Assembly: GCA_905235605.1 (NCBI GenBank)
Contig: CAJOMF010000029.1
Location: 1 to 46,073 of the forward strand
Reading direction: 5' to 3'
Length of the DNA stretch: 46,073 nt
DNA from: an uncultured bacterium
GTDB lineage: Bacteria; UBP6; UBA1177
Shown: in pieces, positions 14,957 to 43,725 of the stretch
Layout of the letters: each line of letters opens with the position of its first letter
Numbering within the stretch: the stretch's first letter is position 1
The notes under the pieces: model-generated
The model's database searches: none
What the model was told of the DNA's origin: nothing
Seen by the model: only the letters and a program-made list of their open reading frames with translations
Made by a program: the position numbers and the translations under genes

Positions 14957-15115
14957 TTGTTAACAGAAAATATAAATTTTGCGAATCAAGAATCAAGAAT
15001 CAAGAATCAAGAATCAAGAATCAAGAATCAAGAATCAAGAATCAAGAATCAAGAATCAAGAATCAAGAATCAAGAATCAAGAATCAAGAATCAAGAATCA
15101 AGAATCCGCGTTTAA
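14957..15115 (+). CDS. possible short ORF of NQESRIK heptapeptide repeats
   Basis: A TTG at 14957 preceded by AAGGAG (14945-14950, 6-base spacing) opens a 52-codon frame: LTENINFA, then five or more NQESRIK units, then IRV and TAA at 15113-15115. The repeat is created by the 7-bp DNA repeat read in three phases (21 bp = 7 aa). Predicted product is a highly charged, probably helical peptide. A weak promoter (TTGAAT about 14909, TATCAT about 14930) is upstream. The good SD supports translation. The unusual start and pure repetitiveness argue against. Gain or loss of one DNA unit would shift the frame. Confidence 0.35.
   Translation: MLTENINFANQESRIKNQESRIKNQESRIKNQESRIKNQESRIKNQESRIRV
14983..15106. 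repeat. heptanucleotide tandem repeat (GAATCAA), about 17.7 copies
   Basis: Seventeen uninterrupted perfect copies of GAATCAA from 14983 to 15101 plus a partial GAATC to 15106. No base substitution was seen in the array, which points to recent expansion by slippage. It lies about 200 bases before the start of the 15312 envelope gene in a 600-bp stretch lacking any other clear gene. Confidence 0.97.
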
Positions 15116-15311
15116 TTATATGTGATTCAAACGTAAAAATCAAGTTTTTCAGTCAAAAAATTTCAGATTCTTTTAATAATTTTAGTTGTTTCCCATTCTC
15201 TTGCGGCGCCTCCCTAGACTCCCTAAACTCCATAGAATTGCGCCGCACCCCGCGCCGCACAAGACAGCGTCAACCGCGCCGCCCGATACAGCACGCAACA
15301 TAGGAGGAAAA
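15116..15311. other. intergenic leader before the CsgG/Sel1-like gene
   Basis: The first half is AT-rich. The second half is unexpectedly GC-rich, with repeated GCGCCGC words (15240-15290). The track ORF starts at 15186 but no SD supports that. I see no RNA gene. It may be the 5' leader of the 15312 message. Confidence 0.4.
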
Positions 15312-17483
15312 ATGAATAAATTCTGCCTCATTTTGTCACTATTTTTCAGCACATTGGTTCTTTTCGCAAATGATGATGACAAGTTGAAATTAGCCGTCAT
15401 GGAGTTTGAGGATCTCAGCGGGAAACTTTCTCCGCAGATGCTCTCCGGAGCCACCGAGTATATGCGAGGTGCATTCGTCAGCTCTAACAAGTATGTCGTT
15501 ATCGCCAAAGAGCGGCAGGAAAAAGAGATGATCAAGGAGATAAAACGGGAATCATACAAATCCTGCAATGACAAAAACTGCCAGATCCCGCTCGGTCAAG
15601 CTCTTTCCGCTGACACGATACTGCGCACTACAATCAATTTTTTCGGTGGAATTTTCACGATCACTTCAGAACTCATCGACCTTGCGAAAGAAGCGACTGT
15701 GAGCGGTGCGAAGCAGAATTTTGACGGCTCAGAACGTTCGCTCATGCAAGCTCTCGACAGGATCGTCGTCCAGATCGCCGGAACAGCCCTTTCCTACGGT
15801 GTTGAAGCGATGCAAACTCAGGAAATTCAAGGCGTAAAACTCGGCGGTGTCGAGCTTGACACGATGCCGAAAATCGAAGTAAAAGAAGCAAATTTTGATG
15901 AAGTCAAGAACTCTGTTGCGGTTGAAAAACTTGAATCCAATACCGGAATTTCACTTGAGGCCGATGCCGATGTTCTTGTCCTTTACGACAAGTGCGTCAA
16001 AGCAGACCGGAATGGCGAAACAGACACTCTCCACACCATCGATTTATGGTCTCAACTTGCTGAAATAAAAGATAAAAACCCGTTTCAGCAGCAGGCTCTA
16101 AAACGAATTTCAGACTGGAAAAAATACGTTTATTCAAAGCAGATGGCTAATTTGTTCGAGGCAGCCAAAGCGGCTGACAAGGCAGGACAGATATTCCCTC
16201 AAAAAGCAATTGACGCCTGGAACGATGTTTTCAAACAAAAAGGAACGACATACGCTGAAGAAAGTGAAAACCGCATTTTTTTGGCAAAATTCGATAATCC
16301 TTATGAACGCTCAGCCATGGAACGCTGGAATTTCTGGAAAAACTATAAATCACAGATCGAAAAATATAAAAATCAGCTTCAGAAATTCGAGGAACAAAGG
16401 AAAGAGGACAGGGAAAAACTGAAAAAAATTCTTCCGCTTGAAGTCATAACCGATGCGCAGAAAAGAACCGTCCTTCTCCAATACATGGAAATCTATGCTC
16501 CTTTCTATGGAATCGAGGATGTAAACAGCATTATTTATTCTATGGACGACAACACGGCTGCGAAACACATTTACGGACTCGTCTACAACGACTATTTGAA
16601 GAAGGAAATGGCTGAAAAATGCGAAAAAGGCAATGGTGCTGCGTGCTATATCTCGGCATCGCTTACAGAAGTCGAAGATCCGCAGAAATCGAATATGTTT
16701 TTCGCTCAATCATGTGAAAGAGGCGTTGTGAATGCATGTGTCAAAACAGGAAGAATCTACTTCCAGAACAAGCAATACAAAGATGCGGCAAAACTTTTTT
16801 ACGAATCATGCGGAATGGAGTCGCCTGAAGGATGCCATATAGCGGCTTATGTCACAGCAAAAGGAATGGGCGTTGAAGAAGATCTCTTTCTTGCAGGAGC
16901 AGTTTATAAAAAAGCATGTGAATTGGGCTATGAAGCAAGCTGCCGACCGGCAAAACAGCTGTCCGGCGTCACTCCTGAAAAATTAGAGCAGATAAAAGAA
17001 CAGCAGGAACACCAAAAACTTGTTGAAGAAAAAAGAAAAGCCGAAGAGAACAGAAAAAAGGCAGAGGCTGATAAAAAGACAAAGATAGCTGATGAACTCA
17101 ACCGCGCAGGGCGCAAAAAAAGATTAGGAATGGCAACAGGATTTCTTGCTTCGGGTGTGGTCGTCACAATTTTGGGCGGAGTCTCGTTCTACGGCATGGG
17201 ATCTGCAGAAAAGGATCGTAAAAATTATTACGATGAATATTGGGGTGCTACAGGAAGCAAAGCTACCGAATACCGCAAAAAAGCGCAGGATGCCGACAGC
17301 AAGCGTAAAACATATTTGGGTCTCGGAATTGCCGGAGTCGGTGCCGGTGTTGCACTCATAACAACAGGAATCGTTTTTTACAGCATTGATTTCGAAAGTG
17401 AGAAAAAGGTAAAGAAAAAATATAATGTCTCAATCGGCACAAGCCCGTTGGACGGAACATTGCAATTTGCGTTGAACTGGTAG
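15312..17483 (+). CDS. exported protein: CsgG/TolB-like N-domain, Sel1-type repeats, C-terminal membrane segments
   Basis: 723 aa from ATG 15312, which has AGGAGG 4 bases upstream. A Sec signal MNKFCLILSLFFSTLVLFA is followed by an AVMEFEDLSG...VVIAKERQ domain (to about residue 170) of the kind found in lipoprotein-associated CsgG/TolB-N-like periplasmic proteins. The middle is helical and charged. About residues 430-545 hold Cys-bearing Sel1/TPR-like repeats (CEKGNGAACYISA, CERGVVNACVKTG, CELGYEASC), then a K/E-rich coiled coil (about 555-600) and two hydrophobic segments (about 605-628 and 665-690). The end, IGTSPLDGTLQFALNW, resembles an outer-membrane beta-strand terminus. Likely an envelope-spanning scaffold. 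The next gene follows after 9 bases, so an operon. Confidence 0.65.
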   Translation: MNKFCLILSLFFSTLVLFANDDDKLKLAVMEFEDLSGKLSPQMLSGATEYMRGAFVSSNKYVVIAKERQEKEMIKEIKRESYKSCNDKNCQIPLGQALSADTILRTTINFFGGIFTITSELIDLAKEATVSGAKQNFDGSERSLMQALDRIVVQIAGTALSYGVEAMQTQEIQGVKLGGVELDTMPKIEVKEANFDEVKNSVAVEKLESNTGISLEADADVLVLYDKCVKADRNGETDTLHTIDLWSQLAEIKDKNPFQQQALKRISDWKKYVYSKQMANLFEAAKAADKAGQIFPQKAIDAWNDVFKQKGTTYAEESENRIFLAKFDNPYERSAMERWNFWKNYKSQIEKYKNQLQKFEEQRKEDREKLKKILPLEVITDAQKRTVLLQYMEIYAPFYGIEDVNSIIYSMDDNTAAKHIYGLVYNDYLKKEMAEKCEKGNGAACYISASLTEVEDPQKSNMFFAQSCERGVVNACVKTGRIYFQNKQYKDAAKLFYESCGMESPEGCHIAAYVTAKGMGVEEDLFLAGAVYKKACELGYEASCRPAKQLSGVTPEKLEQIKEQQEHQKLVEEKRKAEENRKKAEADKKTKIADELNRAGRKKRLGMATGFLASGVVVTILGGVSFYGMGSAEKDRKNYYDEYWGATGSKATEYRKKAQDADSKRKTYLGLGIAGVGAGVALITTGIVFYSIDFESEKKVKKKYNVSIGTSPLDGTLQFALNW

Positions 17484-23717: not shown

Positions 23718-23859
23718 TAAAATTACTGAAGATCAAAAACCATTTTAACACCGGCTGCTCTGTTAAATATTCACTGTGAAAAGCCGAAAAAACCTCTTTT
23801 CTTGACTTTTTTCCCAGTAATCATAGCGTTTCGCGTTTTATTTTTTAACAGTGGAGAAA

Positions 23860-26115
23860 ATGTTGATAAAGTTTATTAAGAATAAAATCGGTAATGATTT
23901 AAATACTTTTTCCGATGTCAGAAACGGTGCTCTCAACAATCTGGATAAATTTCTGATCCTCTTCACCGTCGTTTTGTGCGCTCTGCTCTACATCCCGATG
24001 CTCGGCAACTTTTTTATGATCGATCCGTGGGAAAACCACTATTCGCATGTTGCGTGGGAGACTCTGGAGAACAATTCTTTCGCAAAGCTGTGGTTCCAGC
24101 ATTCTAACAAGTTCTGGTCGAAGCCGCCGCTTCTTTTCTGGATGCTGATGCCGTTCTACAAGTTCAATATTTCCGAGTTTTCGGGAAGACTGCCTATCGC
24201 TTTGTTTTCGATAATCTCTTTAGTCGGTTTCTACATTCTTCTGACGCGGCTGATTTCGCGAAAATCTGCAATAATTTCAACATTTGTTCTTATGCTTTCA
24301 CCTCAGTATTTCATGCTTTCGCGTCAGATCATGGTCGATCTTCCGTTCGTCGCGCTCAACACTATTGCGATGCTCTGTATGACGGTCTACTACTTCGGAA
24401 ATATCGGAACTGATGAGAAAATATTCAAAAAAATCCCGCGAAGTGATTTTTATCTTTATCTTTTCTATTTTTTCGAAGGCTGGGCATTCCTGGCGAAAGG
24501 TCTTCTTTCGATCCTGATACCAGGCATTGCACTTTTCGTTTTTATGGTTTTTTCGCGTAATTTCAGCTGGTTTTTCGCGTGGAGACACCTCAAAAAACAC
24601 CTTATAGGAATGCTTGTTTATCTTGCCGTCGTCATGCCGTGGTTCGGTTATATGTGGATAAGCGAAGGAAAAAGTTTCTTTGACACTTTTATTATTTATC
24701 ACCACTTCAAAAGAACTACAGGCGAAATCCATAAGCCGAACGATCTCTACACGCTTTATGTCAGGATACTGGGCTATGCGATGTTCCCGTGGAGCGCTTT
24801 CCTTCCGGCTGCACTTTACAATTTTTTAACTAAAAAAGAGGAAGATTCAGAAAAAACCAAGAAACTTTTCTTTTTCAGCTCGTTCATAGGACCTTTTCTT
24901 TTCTTCTCTTTTTCATCGACTAAATTTTATCACTACATTGCGCCTGTTGTTCCGTTTCTTGCAATATTTTCAGGTATTTATATTGAAAAATTGTGGAGTG
25001 AACGCTGGACTCTTGCGACAAAAGTCGAAGCCGTTATTTCAATATTTTTAGTTGCTGCGATCGGGCGGGACATCGGTGACAAACACGTTCTTTTCCTTCA
25101 CCTCGTAACTTTCTACAACACAAGAAAAATTCCTGTTCAGGCTTCCTGGGAACCTGTGATAATTTCAGTTTTTGCTGTTTTCTGCTTCATAATTTTCCTA
25201 ATGATTTTGAACAAAAATCTGCAGAATAAAGGTTTTTATATCCTTTTTGCGCTCAGTGCAGGATTTATGACTTACTACTTTGCAGAGCCGCTTCCGCAGA
25301 TTTCAAAATATTATTCTTTAAAACCTCATGTTGAAGCCTATCTGAAGGACAGTCCTGAGAGAGCGCCGATTGCTGACTATTACAAATGGTTAAGAAAATC
25401 AGCAGGTTTCTGGCTTAAAAACGAGATAACTTTTTTGCAGACAGACAAGGAAAAAAATGTCATAAGATTTTTTGACAAACCGGGTATTCAGTATGTGATC
25501 CTTCGTGACAACGATAAAAAACGCTTTGAAACGCTAATGAAAAGAATAAACAAAAAAACAGTTGTCGTTTACAGCGGAGCTAAAAATACACTGCTAAAAG
25601 TTTTTGGAAAAGGTCAGGAGCGCGATATATCTAAAGCTGGCGGATACATCGTTCAAAATCTTCCTGAAAACTTAATAAAATCAAATGTTATTTTTGATAA
25701 TGCAATAAAATTGGAAGGTTTTGTAATTGACAAAAAAAATATAACGGAGCGCGATGGAAAATTCTTTGCAAAAGAAGGATCAACAATCAATATAGACCTT
25801 TATTTCAGATCTATTACCGACAAAATCAATAAAGATTACGATGTTTTTCTCCACAATGAAGGCAACAACAAAGACAAAAGGACAAAAGGTGACGGAAACA
25901 TGGCAAACGGCACTTACCCGACTGATTTCTGGAAAAAAGGTGAAACCATCAGACATCCGTTAAAAATAAATATACCTAAAGGGTCAAAAAACAATTATTA
26001 TATTGCATACACCGGCTTATATCAGGAAGAGTACAGAGCTAATATAACAAACAAAAATGAAGTAAAGGAAAGCGACAACAGAGCTGAACTTATTAAAATT
26101 TACCTCGACAGGTAA
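23860..26115 (+). CDS. membrane glycosyltransferase, GT39/ArnT-like (PMT_2 family)
   Basis: 751 aa. Residues about 30-480 hold around ten to twelve hydrophobic helices. The first periplasmic loop has DPWENHYSHVAWE (about 62-74) and KPPLLFW (about 92-98), the acidic and KPP motifs of polyisoprenyl-phosphate-dependent sugar transferases (PMT/ArnT). It should transfer a sugar from undecaprenyl phosphate to protein or lipid outside the inner membrane. The C-terminal ~240 residues are soluble and much more Lys/Asn rich. ATG 23860 was chosen (GGAG 3 bases upstream) over the GTG at 23851. The gene overlaps recF tail-to-tail by 16 bases. Acceptor unknown. Confidence 0.78.
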   Translation: MLIKFIKNKIGNDLNTFSDVRNGALNNLDKFLILFTVVLCALLYIPMLGNFFMIDPWENHYSHVAWETLENNSFAKLWFQHSNKFWSKPPLLFWMLMPFYKFNISEFSGRLPIALFSIISLVGFYILLTRLISRKSAIISTFVLMLSPQYFMLSRQIMVDLPFVALNTIAMLCMTVYYFGNIGTDEKIFKKIPRSDFYLYLFYFFEGWAFLAKGLLSILIPGIALFVFMVFSRNFSWFFAWRHLKKHLIGMLVYLAVVMPWFGYMWISEGKSFFDTFIIYHHFKRTTGEIHKPNDLYTLYVRILGYAMFPWSAFLPAALYNFLTKKEEDSEKTKKLFFFSSFIGPFLFFSFSSTKFYHYIAPVVPFLAIFSGIYIEKLWSERWTLATKVEAVISIFLVAAIGRDIGDKHVLFLHLVTFYNTRKIPVQASWEPVIISVFAVFCFIIFLMILNKNLQNKGFYILFALSAGFMTYYFAEPLPQISKYYSLKPHVEAYLKDSPERAPIADYYKWLRKSAGFWLKNEITFLQTDKEKNVIRFFDKPGIQYVILRDNDKKRFETLMKRINKKTVVVYSGAKNTLLKVFGKGQERDISKAGGYIVQNLPENLIKSNVIFDNAIKLEGFVIDKKNITERDGKFFAKEGSTINIDLYFRSITDKINKDYDVFLHNEGNNKDKRTKGDGNMANGTYPTDFWKKGETIRHPLKINIPKGSKNNYYIAYTGLYQEEYRANITNKNEVKESDNRAELIKIYLDR

Positions 26116-27132: not shown

Positions 27133-28284
27133 TCAGATTCTGAGAGGCATGATCATGTGAACATAGAAGAATTCTTCAGTTTCTTCTTTCAAAGTCATAG
27201 GTTTATTAGCAGCTTCTTCAACTATTACGTTTACATTGTTATCATCTATAACATTGATTACATCAAGGAAGTATTTAGCATTTACAGCAACGCTTCTTTC
27301 AGTTGAAAAACCTTTTTCAATAACTATTTCATCAGTTGAAGTTCCGCCTGTATTTGAATTTGCTGTGAGTTTAAGAACATTTCCATTGAAGAAATACTTC
27401 GAAACCCACATTTTGTCTTCTGAATTAAGGACGATAACTACACGTTTTATTGCCTCTATAAGCTCCTTTCTGTTTGCAACTGCAAATTCTTTTCCGTTAA
27501 GAACTTCATAAGTTCCGATTATAGGACGGTGCTTAGGAAATTCATTTTTGAAAAGTCTCGAAATAAATATAACATTTTCATTCTTTATAAACATTTTTTC
27601 GTCGTCTATGGCTACATAAGCATCCTCGACATCAGCAAAAATTTTGGTTATTTCAGCAAAATTCCTTCCGGGAATAACTATTCCGCTTTCAAATTCAGGA
27701 ATATCCATATTGAAATTCTTGAGCATAAGTACAGAAAGTCTGTGAATATCAGTAGTTACCATATCAACAGTCTCTGTTCCGTCATCATTTTTTACTTTTA
27801 TGATAAGAACTCCTGAATAAGCCTTAGTCATATAATTTTCAGTCATTGAAAACTGAACTTTCTTGTAGGAAGAAATAAGCCTGCTTATTTTTACAGGTTT
27901 ATATTCTTTTGAAGTATCTGAAATTTCAGGGAAATCTGACGGATTAAAGCATGGGACCTTATATTCTGATTTGTCTGCTGTTATATCAAGAACATTGTTG
28001 GATTCGTTATACTTGAATATTATATTTTCAGCTTTTGAAAGACGGCATATATCATGAATGGATCTTGCAGGAACTGCTATTTTTCCTTCTTCTACCGATT
28101 CTTCGAGATTTACCTTTGCTAAAACTGTTATCTCGAGATTTGTAGCACTGAGAGTGCATTCTCTGTCTTTAAAGCTGAAAAGAACACTGGTAAGAACAAC
28201 CATCGTATGTTTCTTTTCTACACACGAACTGCAGTAATCAAGAGCCTTGAGAAGTTCATCCTTTTTGAAAGTTAATTTAGTCAT
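27133..28284 (-). CDS. dnaN: DNA polymerase III beta subunit (sliding clamp)
   Basis: 383 aa, three tandem clamp domains of roughly 125 residues. N-terminus MTKLTFKKDELLKALDYCSSCVEKKHTM and C-terminus YVHMIMPLRI (the (I/V)MPxR(L/I) end) are diagnostic. PARSIHDICR (about 73-82) is the conserved segment of domain I. Forms a ring that tethers the polymerase to DNA. SD AAGGAGAG before the ATG, own promoter upstream (TTGACA and TATAAC), and 4-base spacing to recF. The codon use of this gene is AT-biased compared with pgi or ahcY. Confidence 0.96.
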   Translation of the reverse strand: MTKLTFKKDELLKALDYCSSCVEKKHTMVVLTSVLFSFKDRECTLSATNLEITVLAKVNLEESVEEGKIAVPARSIHDICRLSKAENIIFKYNESNNVLDITADKSEYKVPCFNPSDFPEISDTSKEYKPVKISRLISSYKKVQFSMTENYMTKAYSGVLIIKVKNDDGTETVDMVTTDIHRLSVLMLKNFNMDIPEFESGIVIPGRNFAEITKIFADVEDAYVAIDDEKMFIKNENVIFISRLFKNEFPKHRPIIGTYEVLNGKEFAVANRKELIEAIKRVVIVLNSEDKMWVSKYFFNGNVLKLTANSNTGGTSTDEIVIEKGFSTERSVAVNAKYFLDVINVIDDNNVNVIVEEAANKPMTLKEETEEFFYVHMIMPLRI

Positions 28285-28460
28285 AATTCTCTCCTTAATT
28301 AAAAAAACAATTATAAATAACCTTTGTTATAATGTTTAAAGACGATAAATTGTCAATAAAAACATGGTAGTTGTAAAACTTTTCAGTGTTGAAAAAAATG
28401 TTTGTTTTTTGTGGTCTTTTCATGGTCTTAGTTTTTCAACATACTAATTTTCAACATTTG
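28285..28460. other. oriC: candidate replication origin between dnaA and dnaN
   Basis: A 176-bp, very AT-rich gap. It has three exact copies of the 9-mer TTTTCAACA: 28448-28456 and 28433-28441 on the + strand and 28387-28395 inverted (TGTTGAAAA). Each differs from the classic DnaA box TTATCCACA at two positions. Two TGGTCTT words lie between them. The AT-rich part next to dnaN could be the unwinding element. Location beside dnaA is the usual place for oriC. The box identity is inferred. Confidence 0.55.
28326..28356 (-). promoter_or_regulatory. dnaN promoter candidate
   Basis: On the minus strand TTGACA (28356-28351) is followed by CATTAT at a 16-base or TATAAC at a 19-base spacing. Both are reasonable -10 boxes, 40 or so bases before the dnaN start. 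It overlaps the origin candidate. Confidence 0.45.
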
Positions 28461-29801
28461 TTATAAACTCTTTCCTGAGCTTTCGATTTCTTTGCTCAAT
28501 TTCGTAACAAGTTTAGATATCTGCTCATCATCAAGTATGAGTTTTTCCACGTTTGAAACTGATGTTATTATTGTGGAATGATCTCTTCCGCCGAATTTTT
28601 CGCCTATTTCCTTAAAAGTCTTCGAAGTATATTTTCTAGCCAGATAAATAGCTATCTGTCTTGATATCGATATTCCTTTTGTTTTTTTCTTCGAAATAAT
28701 TTCAGAATGCTTAACTTTCGTGGCTGTAGAAACTATTTTTATTATATCTTCAATTTCTGTCGGTTGTTTTTTTATAGTATTTTTAAGGGTACTTTCAGCA
28801 AATTTAAGATCTATAACTCCGTTTCCTATAAATTCATGATAAATTTTAAGAGTATTTAAGGCACCTTCTATTTCACGTACATTGTTTTTCAGGTTTGAAG
28901 CTATGAAATCAGCTACTTCATCTTCTATTTTCATATCGTAAAGTTCTGATTTCTTTTTGATTATAGCTACTCTTGTTTCGTATTCAGGCGGAATTATTTC
29001 AAGGGTAACACCCATTGAAAAACGTGATCTGAGTCTGTTGTCTATGTCGTTTATTTCTGTTATGTGTTTATCAGAAGTTATAACTATCTGTTTTTTCTTG
29101 TCGTAAAACTGGTTGAAAATATAGAAAAATTCATTCTGAGTACCTGATTTTCCGGATAAAAACTGAATGTCGTCTATAAGAAGAACATCATTTTTAATTA
29201 TTTTTTCCCTGAAGTCTGAGATTGTCTTTGATTCAATAGCTTTAATATAATCTATTAAAAGCTGGTTCGTAGTCGAATAATAAACTTTTTTATGTTTGTT
29301 GTTTACGATGTAGTTTCCTATAGCCTGTATTATGTGAGTTTTTCCCAGTCCTGAATCACCGTATATAAAAAAAGGATTATAACCTGTTCCTGGATTTTTT
29401 GCTATAGCCTGTGCTGCAAGATAAACGCCGGCATTGGAAGGACCCATTACGAAATTATTGAATGTATAATCTTTATATTTTTCATATTCATCAGTAATTT
29501 TACAGCTGGTTTTGTCTGTTTTATCTTCGTTTTTGAAATCAAATTCAAGCTGCAGATCTTTTTCTTCGTTTTCTGGAACTACTATGAACTGGACTTCTGT
29601 ATTTTCATCAAAAAGAGTCTTAGCAATTTTTTCTATTTTGGATAAATAGTTATTTTTCTTAAGAAAATTATAAGCATATTTACTTTTGCAGTTTACAATT
29701 ATTTTTTCTCTTGACTCTTCTTTGGGATAAAGAGCGTCAATAAAAGTATTTATCTCATTATTATTGGTCTTTTTGAGCTCTTCTACTATTGTTTTCCACA
29801 T
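28461..29801 (-). CDS. dnaA: chromosomal replication initiator protein DnaA
   Basis: AAA+ initiator that binds and opens oriC. Start at ATG 29801 (MWKTIVEEL) because GAGGG stands 4 bases upstream, giving 446 aa. Domain I about 1-80, linker about 80-110, AAA+ domain with Walker A GDSGLGKTH (about 148-156) and Walker B VLLIDDIQF (about 206-214), arginine finger region DNRLRSRFSMG, and DNA-binding domain IV with the signature FGGRDHSTIITSVSNVE near 410. Compared with the common RDHTTVLHA form, two base-contact or backbone positions are changed (Thr to Ser and His to Thr). First gene of dnaA-dnaN-recF. Confidence 0.96.
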   Translation of the reverse strand: MWKTIVEELKKTNNNEINTFIDALYPKEESREKIIVNCKSKYAYNFLKKNNYLSKIEKIAKTLFDENTEVQFIVVPENEEKDLQLEFDFKNEDKTDKTSCKITDEYEKYKDYTFNNFVMGPSNAGVYLAAQAIAKNPGTGYNPFFIYGDSGLGKTHIIQAIGNYIVNNKHKKVYYSTTNQLLIDYIKAIESKTISDFREKIIKNDVLLIDDIQFLSGKSGTQNEFFYIFNQFYDKKKQIVITSDKHITEINDIDNRLRSRFSMGVTLEIIPPEYETRVAIIKKKSELYDMKIEDEVADFIASNLKNNVREIEGALNTLKIYHEFIGNGVIDLKFAESTLKNTIKKQPTEIEDIIKIVSTATKVKHSEIISKKKTKGISISRQIAIYLARKYTSKTFKEIGEKFGGRDHSTIITSVSNVEKLILDDEQISKLVTKLSKEIESSGKSL

Positions 29802-29883: not shown

Positions 29884-30576
29884 TTATCCTTGAAAACAGT
29901 GGTTTTCTTTGACAGCAACGTCAGGAAAGTCCGATATGATACCTTTTGTAAAGTTGTTTTTAAGAATCTGCTGCATCTCTTCTGCTGTATTGACGTTCCA
30001 GTAAACAGCTTCTGTTTTAAAAGGCAGAGACGGAATGAGTTTATTTACTGTGAAATCAAAATTTCTGCAGTCAGGCAGAACGAAATCTGGTCTTAGTTTC
30101 ATTATTCTTGACACAAGATCTTTCTTTGTAGTGTCGTCAAAAAGGAGTCCTTTCTTTAAACCTGTGAAATCATTTGTAATTTGTTCAATAACACTATCAA
30201 AGAATGAAGTTGTTATAAAATCTTCCGGCATAAAATGCAAAAGGGTTTTCTCAATAGTTTCTTTAGTTGTCTCAGGCTCCTTTATTTCAATATCAAGCTT
30301 GATTTTTCCTTTGCATAAATTCAAAACATCTTCGAGAAGCGGGACCCTGTAACCTGAACTTTCTGAAATTTTTATTATTTCACTGTAATTCATTTCTCTG
30401 AGAATGTGTCCTTTTAAAGCAGGATCGTGATGAATTATCAGTTTTCTGTCTTTTGAGTAACGGACGTCGAATTCTATAAAGTCAGCACCGTCGGAAATAG
30501 CGGCTGAAAAACTTTCAAGAGTATTTTCTTTTGCTTTTTTCGGACTTCCGCGATGCCCTCCGATGAGTTTTTTCAT
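29884..30576 (-). CDS. glycerophosphodiester phosphodiesterase
   Basis: 230-aa TIM-barrel GDPD enzyme hydrolysing glycerophosphodiesters to glycerol-3-phosphate and an alcohol. Catalytic elements: GGHRGSPKKAKENTLESF (His/Arg/Glu at residues 8-20), FIEFDVR (Glu/Asp, about 34-40), IHHDPAL (about 48-54) and the metal-binding LDIEIKEP (about 92-99). No signal peptide, so the cytoplasmic type. It stands 68 bases upstream of the dnaA start and has the same orientation, so transcription could read into dnaA. ATG with AAGGAG upstream. Confidence 0.9.
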   Translation of the reverse strand: MKKLIGGHRGSPKKAKENTLESFSAAISDGADFIEFDVRYSKDRKLIIHHDPALKGHILREMNYSEIIKISESSGYRVPLLEDVLNLCKGKIKLDIEIKEPETTKETIEKTLLHFMPEDFITTSFFDSVIEQITNDFTGLKKGLLFDDTTKKDLVSRIMKLRPDFVLPDCRNFDFTVNKLIPSLPFKTEAVYWNVNTAEEMQQILKNNFTKGIISDFPDVAVKENHCFQG

Positions 30577-40176: not shown

Positions 40177-43008
40177 TTACGCAGCCGAAGCGTTGGCATT
40201 GACTTTATCTATCACTTTGCGGATGCCGAGCCATAGGGAAGTGTCGCTGAAGACTTCCACGATGCTGCCGCGGTCGGTAAACGGTGCTTCCTGAAGGACT
40301 GAAAGGTCTTTCATCATGCCGTTGTGAACGATGTATTCCACGATCTGGTTGACGAAATAGATCTGGCGGCTGTCAAGGCTGGTGTTGTTCAGAAACTCAG
40401 CGAAAGCCTCTTTTGCCGCGTTCATGTCGAGTCCTACGATTTCACGCACGAATTCGCCGAGCGGTTTCGCTTTATACAAAGCTTCGTAATCTTCCCTGGT
40501 TCCGGCTTCGCTCCAGAGTATCGCCTCGAGATCGGTCATATCTTTGCCTGTGAGAGGAAGATTGCTTTTGAGTTTGGCGATGACACCTTCGTTCTGGTGC
40601 TTGCGGACAAAGTATTCCGCCCGTTCGCGGTAAGTTGTGAGATAGGTAGTTTCGGCTTCTGCGACGCTCCATTTTGTCGAAAGCACTTCGTCGCTGAAAT
40701 TCGTGTCGTATAGACTGTGCGAATAGTTGACATACGTCATCAGATTGCGCAGATTTATGCGGATCTCCTCAAATTCCATGATTCCTGCGGTATCAAGGTA
40801 ATATGTGTGGAGGATTTTGTTTATAAGTTCTGACTGCATCATAATTGCGGGAATATTGGCGATATTTGCCACGGCATTCACCTTTTTCATGAGGTCGTTC
40901 CGTGCCGCGCCGTATTTGTTTCCTGCTAATAATGCAAGCTCTATTCCGTAAAGAAGGGCATCGAAACGCAGTGCTTTGACATCATCGATGTCGGGCTGGA
41001 TAAGCGGCACGAGTTCGCGCTTCATGTTGAGTGTCTCTTCGTAAGTCAAAGCGTTGTAGTTTTCAGGGTTTGAATAGAGTTCGACATATTTCAGATGCTG
41101 TCTTACGGCGAAATTGCCGCGGTCGAGTTCGCGCACTTTTTTAACCATTTCCTCAACCAGTTTTTTGCGGAAAGCGATGAGTTCAGGTGTCTGCCAGATG
41201 ATCTCCTGAAGTTTGAAGGCGATCTGCGCTTTGAGAAGGAAAAGAGCCCCTTGCAGAGCCACAGTGTCAGCACTTGCCCGCCCTTTGTTCATGCGGAAAA
41301 ACTCGAAGTTCCCGCAGAAATCGAAGATGTAGAACTTTGTCTTGTCAAATCCGTCGATAAGTCCCTGGCATAGGCGTGTTCCGCGTCCTATCATCTGCCA
41401 GAATTTTGCTTTGCTGAGAACGACTTTGAAGAAAACCAGATTCAGCACTTCGGGGACATCGATTCCGGTATCGAGCATATCGACTGAAATGGCTACCTGC
41501 GGCAGTTTTTTTGCGTCAGAGAACTCGTCGATCGCGCTCTGGGCATAGTTTATGGTGTTGTCGATCACTTTGGCGTAGTTGTTCAGGTGGGGAAATTCCT
41601 TTCCGAAAACTTCGAGGATTTTTTCTGCGTGTCTGTGGTTTTTTGCAAAGATGATCGTTTTGCCGATTTTGCTGTTGTAGTCGATTTTAAGTCCGTCGTT
41701 CATCAGGATGCGCAGAACTTTTCGGATGGTGTCTTCGTTGAAGATCCAGTCGTTCAGTGCTGACGGTGTGATGCTTTCGGGGATTTCGCCGCTTTCATCG
41801 GCAAAAGTCTTTTCGTATTCCTCTTTTTCTTCATCGCTCAGTTCGTCGTAAACTATTCCGCGCTGGATGAATTTGAGTGTCGTTTCGACTGAAAGAAAAT
41901 CGACCAGATAGCCGTCTTTTACTGCCTGCGCCAGCTCGTAACCGTAAGTCGGAACGCCGTTTTCAAGCTCGAAAACCTCGTAGGTGTTTTTGTCGATTTC
42001 GTCTTTAGGTGTCGCGGTGAGACCTACGAGCGGAGAATCGAAGTAGTTGAAAATTTCCTGATATTTGTTGTAGATCGAGCGGTGCGCTTCGTCGCAGATC
42101 AGAAGGTCGAAGTGTCCGCAGGAAAAGACTCTTCCTTCTTTGTCACGCACTGAATCGATGCAGTTTATCATTGTCTGGTAAGTCGAAAAGACGCAGTGAG
42201 CTTCGATGTTGCATTTTTCTTCGCAGAGATTTGTGACAGAAAGATCGGGCAGAAGGTTCACAAAGCTGCGTTTCGCCTGGGTCACGAGGGAATTTCTGTC
42301 TGCGAGGAAGAGGACGTTTTTGATCCAGCCCTTGTCCATCAGCACTTTTACGAGTGCGATGACGGTTCTTGTTTTGCCGGAACCTGTCGCCATGACAAGG
42401 AGAGCCTTTCTGCGGTTTTTCTCTCCGAAACTGTCGCATACCGCTTTTATTGCAGCTTCCTGATAGTAACGTCCGGCAATATTTCTATCCGCCATAATGT
42501 TTTTCAGGCTGCTGCGCATCCGCTGGAGATTGAACCACTTTTCAAGATCACGTTTCGAATAGATCCTTGCGACCTTCCGCTCAGGATACTGGTTGTCAAC
42601 GATCCGTGTCTCGAAACCGTTTGAAAGAAAAACAACCGGGCGGAATCCCTGCTTCTTCTCAATCAGATCGGCGTAAAGTTTTGCCTGCTGTCTCCCTTTT
42701 GAAACATCAACGCAGGTGCGTTTCGCCTCGATTACGGCAAGGATGCGGCCGTCGTCACCAAACAGCGCATAGTCGGCAAAACCCACTTCCGACTTGTTCG
42801 GCATACCAGGGAGTTCGTATTCGTTGAGCCAGTTTTTTCCCTCTATCCAGCCGTCATCACGCAGCATCGTGTCGATGTATTTTTTGCGGGTCTGGCCCTC
42901 TCCGTCACCGCTTGCTGCGGTGACACCTCCCCCTGAGTGGGAGGCAAGGCTTGGCTGCGCAGCAGACTGAGAGGGGTTCTCTGAGGGATTCTCTTTATCA
43001 TTGTTCAT
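40177..43008 (-). CDS. type I restriction R-subunit-like helicase/nuclease (EcoEI R-like)
   Basis: 943 aa. After an odd linker (1-38), residues about 39-100 start QTRKKYIDTML and contain the nuclease motif FADYALFGDDG...AVIEAKRT. The SF2 translocase follows: MATGSGKTRTV (motif I, about 207), LLICDEAHRS (II), VGLTATP (III), MLDTGIDVPEVL and QMIGRGTRLCQG (VI). The C-terminal half is the EcoEI-R-type domain. In type I systems this subunit translocates and cuts, but no hsdM or hsdS is in the window, so it may be orphan or supported elsewhere. The start overlaps DUF559 by 11 bases and has GGAG 8 bases upstream. Residues 11-38 derive from a palindromic repeat. Confidence 0.83.
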   Translation of the reverse strand: MNNDKENPSENPSQSAAQPSLASHSGGGVTAASGDGEGQTRKKYIDTMLRDDGWIEGKNWLNEYELPGMPNKSEVGFADYALFGDDGRILAVIEAKRTCVDVSKGRQQAKLYADLIEKKQGFRPVVFLSNGFETRIVDNQYPERKVARIYSKRDLEKWFNLQRMRSSLKNIMADRNIAGRYYQEAAIKAVCDSFGEKNRRKALLVMATGSGKTRTVIALVKVLMDKGWIKNVLFLADRNSLVTQAKRSFVNLLPDLSVTNLCEEKCNIEAHCVFSTYQTMINCIDSVRDKEGRVFSCGHFDLLICDEAHRSIYNKYQEIFNYFDSPLVGLTATPKDEIDKNTYEVFELENGVPTYGYELAQAVKDGYLVDFLSVETTLKFIQRGIVYDELSDEEKEEYEKTFADESGEIPESITPSALNDWIFNEDTIRKVLRILMNDGLKIDYNSKIGKTIIFAKNHRHAEKILEVFGKEFPHLNNYAKVIDNTINYAQSAIDEFSDAKKLPQVAISVDMLDTGIDVPEVLNLVFFKVVLSKAKFWQMIGRGTRLCQGLIDGFDKTKFYIFDFCGNFEFFRMNKGRASADTVALQGALFLLKAQIAFKLQEIIWQTPELIAFRKKLVEEMVKKVRELDRGNFAVRQHLKYVELYSNPENYNALTYEETLNMKRELVPLIQPDIDDVKALRFDALLYGIELALLAGNKYGAARNDLMKKVNAVANIANIPAIMMQSELINKILHTYYLDTAGIMEFEEIRINLRNLMTYVNYSHSLYDTNFSDEVLSTKWSVAEAETTYLTTYRERAEYFVRKHQNEGVIAKLKSNLPLTGKDMTDLEAILWSEAGTREDYEALYKAKPLGEFVREIVGLDMNAAKEAFAEFLNNTSLDSRQIYFVNQIVEYIVHNGMMKDLSVLQEAPFTDRGSIVEVFSDTSLWLGIRKVIDKVNANASAA
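42896..42976. repeat. palindromic repeat element inside the HsdR-like gene
   Basis: An 81-bp unit from CCCTCTCCG to GAGAGGGG. It contains an 8-bp perfect hairpin GTCACCGC-TTGCT-GCGGTGAC, then CCTCCC...GGGAGG, then CAAGGCTTGG and CTGCGCAG palindromes. Its ends are inverted (CCCTCTC/GAGAGGG). 81 is a multiple of three and the element reads through without a stop on the minus strand, encoding residues 11-38 of the helicase. Same family as 43371-43515. Confidence 0.8.
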
Positions 43009-43515: not shown

Positions 43516-43725
43516 TTCTACAATTTTAATGAGTTCTATTATTTTCTCCGAACTTTTCTCCGAACTTTTCTCCGAACTTTTTACCGTACTTTTTACCGTA
43601 CTTTTCACTATACTTTTCACTGTACTTTTCACTGTACTTTTCTGTGAACTTTTCTGCGAACTTTTTTGGGTAGTTTTTTGGGTAGTTTGGGTAGTTTTCT
43701 GGGTAATTGTTTTAGTTTTCTCCAC
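43495..43725 (-). pseudogene. truncated ORF with KSTV/KSSE tetrapeptide repeats
   Basis: Minus-strand frame of 76 codons from GTG 43725: EKTKTITQKTTQTTQKTTQKSSQ..KSTVKSTVK..KSSEKSSEK then IIELIKIVEPLSVTS and stop. The repetitive part comes from a 12-bp DNA repeat. Such KTTQ/KSSE linkers followed by KIIELI usually precede the winged helix of AlbA_2/RecG-like ATP-binding regulators. Here the winged helix is cut off at the repeat element (last residues EPLSVTS are repeat-encoded) and the N-terminal domains are absent, with a TGA just before the GTG. So I read it as a leftover linker. Confidence 0.55.

Follow-up and report, generated by a model that had tools for sequence, protein, structure and literature searches.

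Chromosome origins of the dnaA-dnaN type, as described for Bacillus subtilis with its unwinding element (PMC8287927) and for the dnaN-proximal origin of Cyanothece (PMC4674748), have a noncoding, AT-rich gap with DnaA boxes in both orientations. The basal unwinding system combines such boxes with DnaA-trios (PMC8287927). The canonical box, TTWTNCACA, has C at position 6 (C6). The variant with A at this position (A6) is known elsewhere, since the Mollicute consensus TT(A/T)TC(C/A)ACA, given in a review of phytoplasma genomes, covers TTTTCAACA and the review names this very word (PMC3322544), and since the origin of the linear Cyanothece chromosome has been assigned a TTATCAACA box (PMC4674748). 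Epsilonproteobacterial origins have a lineage-specific box spelling, peculiar in the T at position 5, which the authors tentatively linked to helix-5 residues 435, 438, and 439 (PMC5043019).

The 46,073-nt stretch of DNA analyzed here (the window) contains a locus of the dnaA-dnaN type, in which two - strand genes, dnaA (stop at 28461) and dnaN (start at 28284), precede recF and flank a noncoding, AT-rich gap (Table 1). The first-pass annotation had proposed this gap as a candidate oriC, citing three exact copies of TTTTCAACA, two direct and one inverted. We found all three copies as described, and the proposal is supported by the position of the gap, its conserved box cluster, and the GC skew in relatives, features that can be read directly from the sequences. 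The gap is thus very probably the chromosome replication origin, which places an origin for an uncultured ruminant-gut lineage. It is of an ordinary kind; its boxes deviate from the textbook consensus, though not without precedent: the three window boxes all have A at position 6 and match the TT(A/T)TC(C/A)ACA type, and a search for TTWTNCACA alone would miss the main boxes of this origin.

Table 1. Features of the dnaA-dnaN region, in window coordinates.
Feature	Position	Strand	Remarks
dnaA, replication initiator	28461..29801	-	Pfam Bac_DnaA 6e-59, Bac_DnaA_C 5e-23; start context in relatives
dnaA-dnaN gap, candidate oriC	28285..28460	.	176 bp, 76.7% AT; pooled GC-skew step here in relatives
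DnaA box A, TTTTCAACA	28448..28456	+	reads TTTTCAACA or CTTTCAACA within the genus
DnaA box B, TTTTCAACA	28433..28441	+	TTTTCCACA in relatives G012 and G001
DnaA box C, TTTTCAACA	28387..28395	-	inverted relative to boxes A and B
TTATTGACA	28351..28359	-	identical in 9/10 genus members; at most two mismatches from TTATCCACA
dnaN promoter candidate, TTGACA-16-CATTAT	28329..28356	-	overlaps box D; block conserved in the genus alignment
Degenerate box D, CTTTAAACA	28333..28341	-	G013 has an exact TTTTCAACA here
AT-rich stretch before dnaN, candidate unwinding element	28285..28332	-	
dnaN, sliding clamp	27133..28284	-	Pfam DNA_pol3_beta domains

We compared the gap with the dnaA-dnaN gaps of relatives (n = 19: ten of the same genus with orthologous gaps, G005, four of the same family, and four of the same order). 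Within the genus the layout is constant: the dnaA stop is followed by box A, box B, a spacer of ~37 bp, and the inverted box C, and then by the block TGTTTTTATTGACA, CTTTAAACATTATAACA (box D), the AT-rich stretch, and the dnaN Shine-Dalgarno sequence. In the genus alignment (ten gaps, the window counted), mean identity to the window was 0.91 to 0.98 for the boxes and 0.99 for the TTATTGACA block, against 0.83 overall. Conservation alone is no proof, since some other stretches of the gap are equally conserved. The strongest argument from sequence for regarding the repeats as DnaA boxes is the exchange of C and A at position 6 of orthologous sites. Box B of the window, TTTTCAACA, is replaced in G012 and G001 by TGTGGAAAA, which corresponds to the classic DnaA box TTTTCCACA, so the repeats are probably DnaA boxes in which A is accepted at position 6. 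Mollicute boxes show a similar alternation of A and C at this position, but the window comes from an unrelated bacterium in which TTTTCAACA dominates, at genus-conserved positions. The family member G017 has TTATCAACA at a place comparable to box D, and in order-level relatives box conservation fades and boxes are harder to recognize. G005 (L021, G005:C43) belongs to the same genus by binning; its only DnaA is 45% identical, like that of a different order, and its dnaA contig may be mis-binned.

The first-pass annotation had named GC skew as a check on the origin, and we ran it on long contigs around dnaA from six relatives (incomplete genomes), with gene direction as a covariate. The skew step across dnaA was positive in all six (t = 3.1, 4.4, 7.0, 4.4, 3.2, and 1.5). 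In a pooled breakpoint scan of the six contigs, which resolves to only ~3 kb, the maximum fell at offset 0 from dnaA (LRT 138.7, compared to 105 at -6 kb and 102 at +6 kb), so that the strand-composition switch expected of a dnaA-dnaN type origin is present in relatives when pooled. The cumulative skew minimum lay 1.4 kb from dnaA in G013, 0.8 kb in G009, and 19 kb in G021 (an order-level relative with 400 kb of contig), and the single contigs of G003, G007, and G012 had no cumulative minimum at dnaA. The window, with its 46 kb, shows no significant skew step of its own (t = 0.8) and is too short for a verdict, though its best breakpoint also falls at dnaA.

With a resolution of ~3 kb, the skew would also accommodate an arrangement in which the repeats are mainly regulatory, with DnaA or another factor controlling dnaA-dnaN transcription from them and the origin lying outside the gap but close to it, perhaps no more than a few kb away. 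The conserved dnaN promoter candidate fits such a role, as it lies between boxes C and D and overlaps D, and TTATTGACA is most likely its -35 element (TTGACA). Clustered boxes at conserved positions nevertheless fit the usual oriC layout, and no second cluster of exact TTTTCAACA copies was found within the window. Regulation and origin function are also compatible, and we consider a mainly regulatory role improbable.

The orientation of the copies brings up a second alternative, in which they are the arms of an RNA hairpin, a terminator or attenuator between dnaA and dnaN, since in the window box C repeats box B perfectly in inverted orientation. The loop would be ~37 nt and the stem A/T-rich. 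RNA folding of the gap was no better than that of shuffled sequences (z = 0.65), and relatives in which box B has become TGTGGAAAA or TGTTTAAAA show no compensating change in box C. Because the folding is unexceptional and the box changes are uncompensated, we rejected the hairpin, which is very unlikely to explain the repeats.

The clustering itself was assessed against the gap and against the genome. In dinucleotide-preserving shuffles of the gap, three copies of TTTTCAACA occurred in 0 of 20,000, and any 9-mer within two mismatches of TTATCCACA was present three times in 0 of 5,000. The genome has 197 exact copies of TTTTCAACA in 2.67 Mb (136 contigs), and thus 0.012 copies are expected in the gap; at least three copies there have a Poisson P of 3e-7. 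The comparison of 9-mer frequency in the gap and the genome, also suggested by the first-pass annotation, accordingly found the word strongly concentrated in the gap (~240-fold over genome density). Within the limits of incomplete genomes, this comparison and the skew check, the two results that might have refuted the proposal, thus both came out in its favor. Direct pairs at most 30 bp apart occur only twice in the genome, the gap pair included, and the dnaA-dnaN gap is the densest exact TTTTCAACA cluster of its contig in the window, G007, and G013. That the repeats merely reflect chance or codon usage, TTTTCAACA being a frequent coding word, is scarcely credible. The word does outnumber its reversed form ~2.5-fold across the genome (197 vs 78), and in the window and the contigs of genus relatives ORFs contain 48 of the 54 copies found outside the origin; coding thus probably explains the global excess. 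It does not explain the local cluster, which is noncoding, genus-conserved, and beyond chance at genome density. A related 9-mer that had been pointed out at 23861, TGTTGATAA, occurs once, within the opening codons of an ORF resembling a glycosyltransferase (23851-26115), and nothing suggests that it is part of the origin.

Taking the gap as oriC, we next considered how it would work. DnaA would bind boxes A and B beside the dnaA stop, box C in mid-gap, and the degenerate box D by the AT-rich stretch, and would open the duplex at the AT-rich stretch before dnaN. As we propose, the boxes read TTTTCAACA because this DnaA, whose recognition helix carries Ser435, accepts A as well as C at position 6, and the origin gap would also house the dnaN promoter. 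We hold this joint reading, in which the gap is an oriC with DnaA on boxes A-D, duplex opening, Ser435-tolerated A6, and a dnaN promoter, to be highly likely; DnaA binding, duplex opening, and firing at the gap are the parts that we infer from sequence.

Compared to described dnaA-dnaN type origins, the locus is alike in its noncoding AT-rich gap, boxes in both orientations, and skew switch in relatives, but it has few boxes, only three of them exact, A rather than C at position 6, and a weak DnaA-trio run. As in the basal unwinding system, box D is followed by an AT-rich stretch toward dnaN. We scored DnaA-trios as TAN steps, which is stricter than the looser NAN pattern (PMC8287927). By this score the window gap has at most two steps, not above chance, and thus no run of at least three within 16 bp of a box, in contrast to the basal system. 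Runs of 5-6 TAN steps before dnaN, above shuffles, were found in G017, G018, and G021 (TATTATTATTAATAA and similar), likening these relatives to that system. As the long runs occur only in more distant relatives, trio-type unwinding is a likely mechanism across the wider group but only a candidate one in the window genome. The lineage-specific spelling is reminiscent of Epsilonproteobacterial origins, although the peculiarity is at position 6 (A) in the window versus position 5 (T) in those bacteria.

The DnaA protein encoded in the window has an AAA+ domain and a domain IV helix-turn-helix with conserved R/D/H contacts. Residues were numbered on the E. coli DnaA sequence. At residue 399 the window has K, where most relatives have R, and domain IV carries RDHSTIITS, as the first-pass annotation had stated, with several differences from RDHTTVLHA of E. 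coli. That annotation had also guessed at an altered DnaA specificity. The guess needs correcting: A6 boxes go with Ser rather than Thr at residue 435 across phyla, and most of RDHSTIITS is beside the point, since G017, with the motif RNHATVISS, still has TTTTCAACA, as does G042, which has otherwise standard contact residues (KDHSTVIHA, P423).

In an initial sample of ~30 genomes that reached into other families, TTWTCAACA occurred beside dnaA with Ser435 and almost never with Thr435. Since the Ser435 idea arose from these data, we tested it on 123 other genomes, a sample in which a few phyla give several genomes and which leans to genomes with a DnaA matching the query well. Boxes were counted within 1.2 kb of dnaA, in flanks that include some coding sequence. 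The 53 Ser435 genomes had 58 A6 and 83 C6 boxes and the 65 Thr435 genomes 13 A6 and 136 C6, while the reversed A6 control word occurred 5 and 4 times, respectively. At least one A6 box was present in 26/53 Ser435 versus 11/65 Thr435 genomes (Fisher p = 0.0003); restricting the count to AT-rich genomes that have a box of either kind gave 20/26 and 6/24 (p = 0.0005). With GC and residues 423, 432, and 440 as covariates, Ser435 kept its effect (p = 0.004) and R432 also had one (p = 0.007). Residues 423 and 440, considered as causes of the box change, had no independent effect with covariates and were set aside. In 10 of 24 phylogenetically independent Ser/Thr pairs only the Ser member had A6 boxes, and in 1 only the Thr member did (p = 0.012).

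Residue 435 has been reported to contact bases (PMC5043019, PMC7561715). The link between Ser435 and A6 is a correlational, cross-genome association, and linked residues could be the cause. We tentatively suggest, as an idea with somewhat less than an even chance of being right, that across bacteria DnaA residue 435 (Ser/Thr, E. coli numbering) sets the acceptance of A at box position 6, such that a single natural substitution would broaden the binding code and origins would drift accordingly, the A form having become the rule in this clade. The association adds to the origin assignment itself and makes the earlier guess about specificity testable. If it held in binding tests, a simple rule would allow DnaA boxes and origins to be predicted from protein sequence in lineages without experimental data.

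We also noted several features near dnaA and elsewhere in the window. Translation of dnaA probably begins at the ATG at 29801 (MWKT...), because in the close relatives G007 and G014 an in-frame TAA just upstream of this codon separates it from the other candidate ATG. At this start, ATG TGG AAA A (29792-29801) spells TTTTCCACA on the opposite strand, overlapping the start codon; this classic-type box is kept in most genus members read and is partly forced by Met-Trp-Lys. The gene immediately upstream of dnaA, also on the - strand, encodes a glycerophosphodiester phosphodiesterase (29884-30576), and its place is kept in 7/9 same-genus relatives with loci reaching that far (not found in G008 and G013). 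An Rfam scan of the window returned one tRNA and nothing else. Near the window edge, 126-947 encodes a partial MmeI-like type IIG restriction enzyme (target recognition domain). A perfect 7-bp tandem repeat, GAATCAA (17.7 copies, 100% identical), occupies 14983-15106, just before a large ORF (15186-17483). A 12-bp tandem repeat of the TTTTCACCGAAC type at 43542-43665 yields a repetitive ORF (SELFSELFTVLFTVLF...) and adjoins a type I restriction HsdR-like gene (40177-43008).
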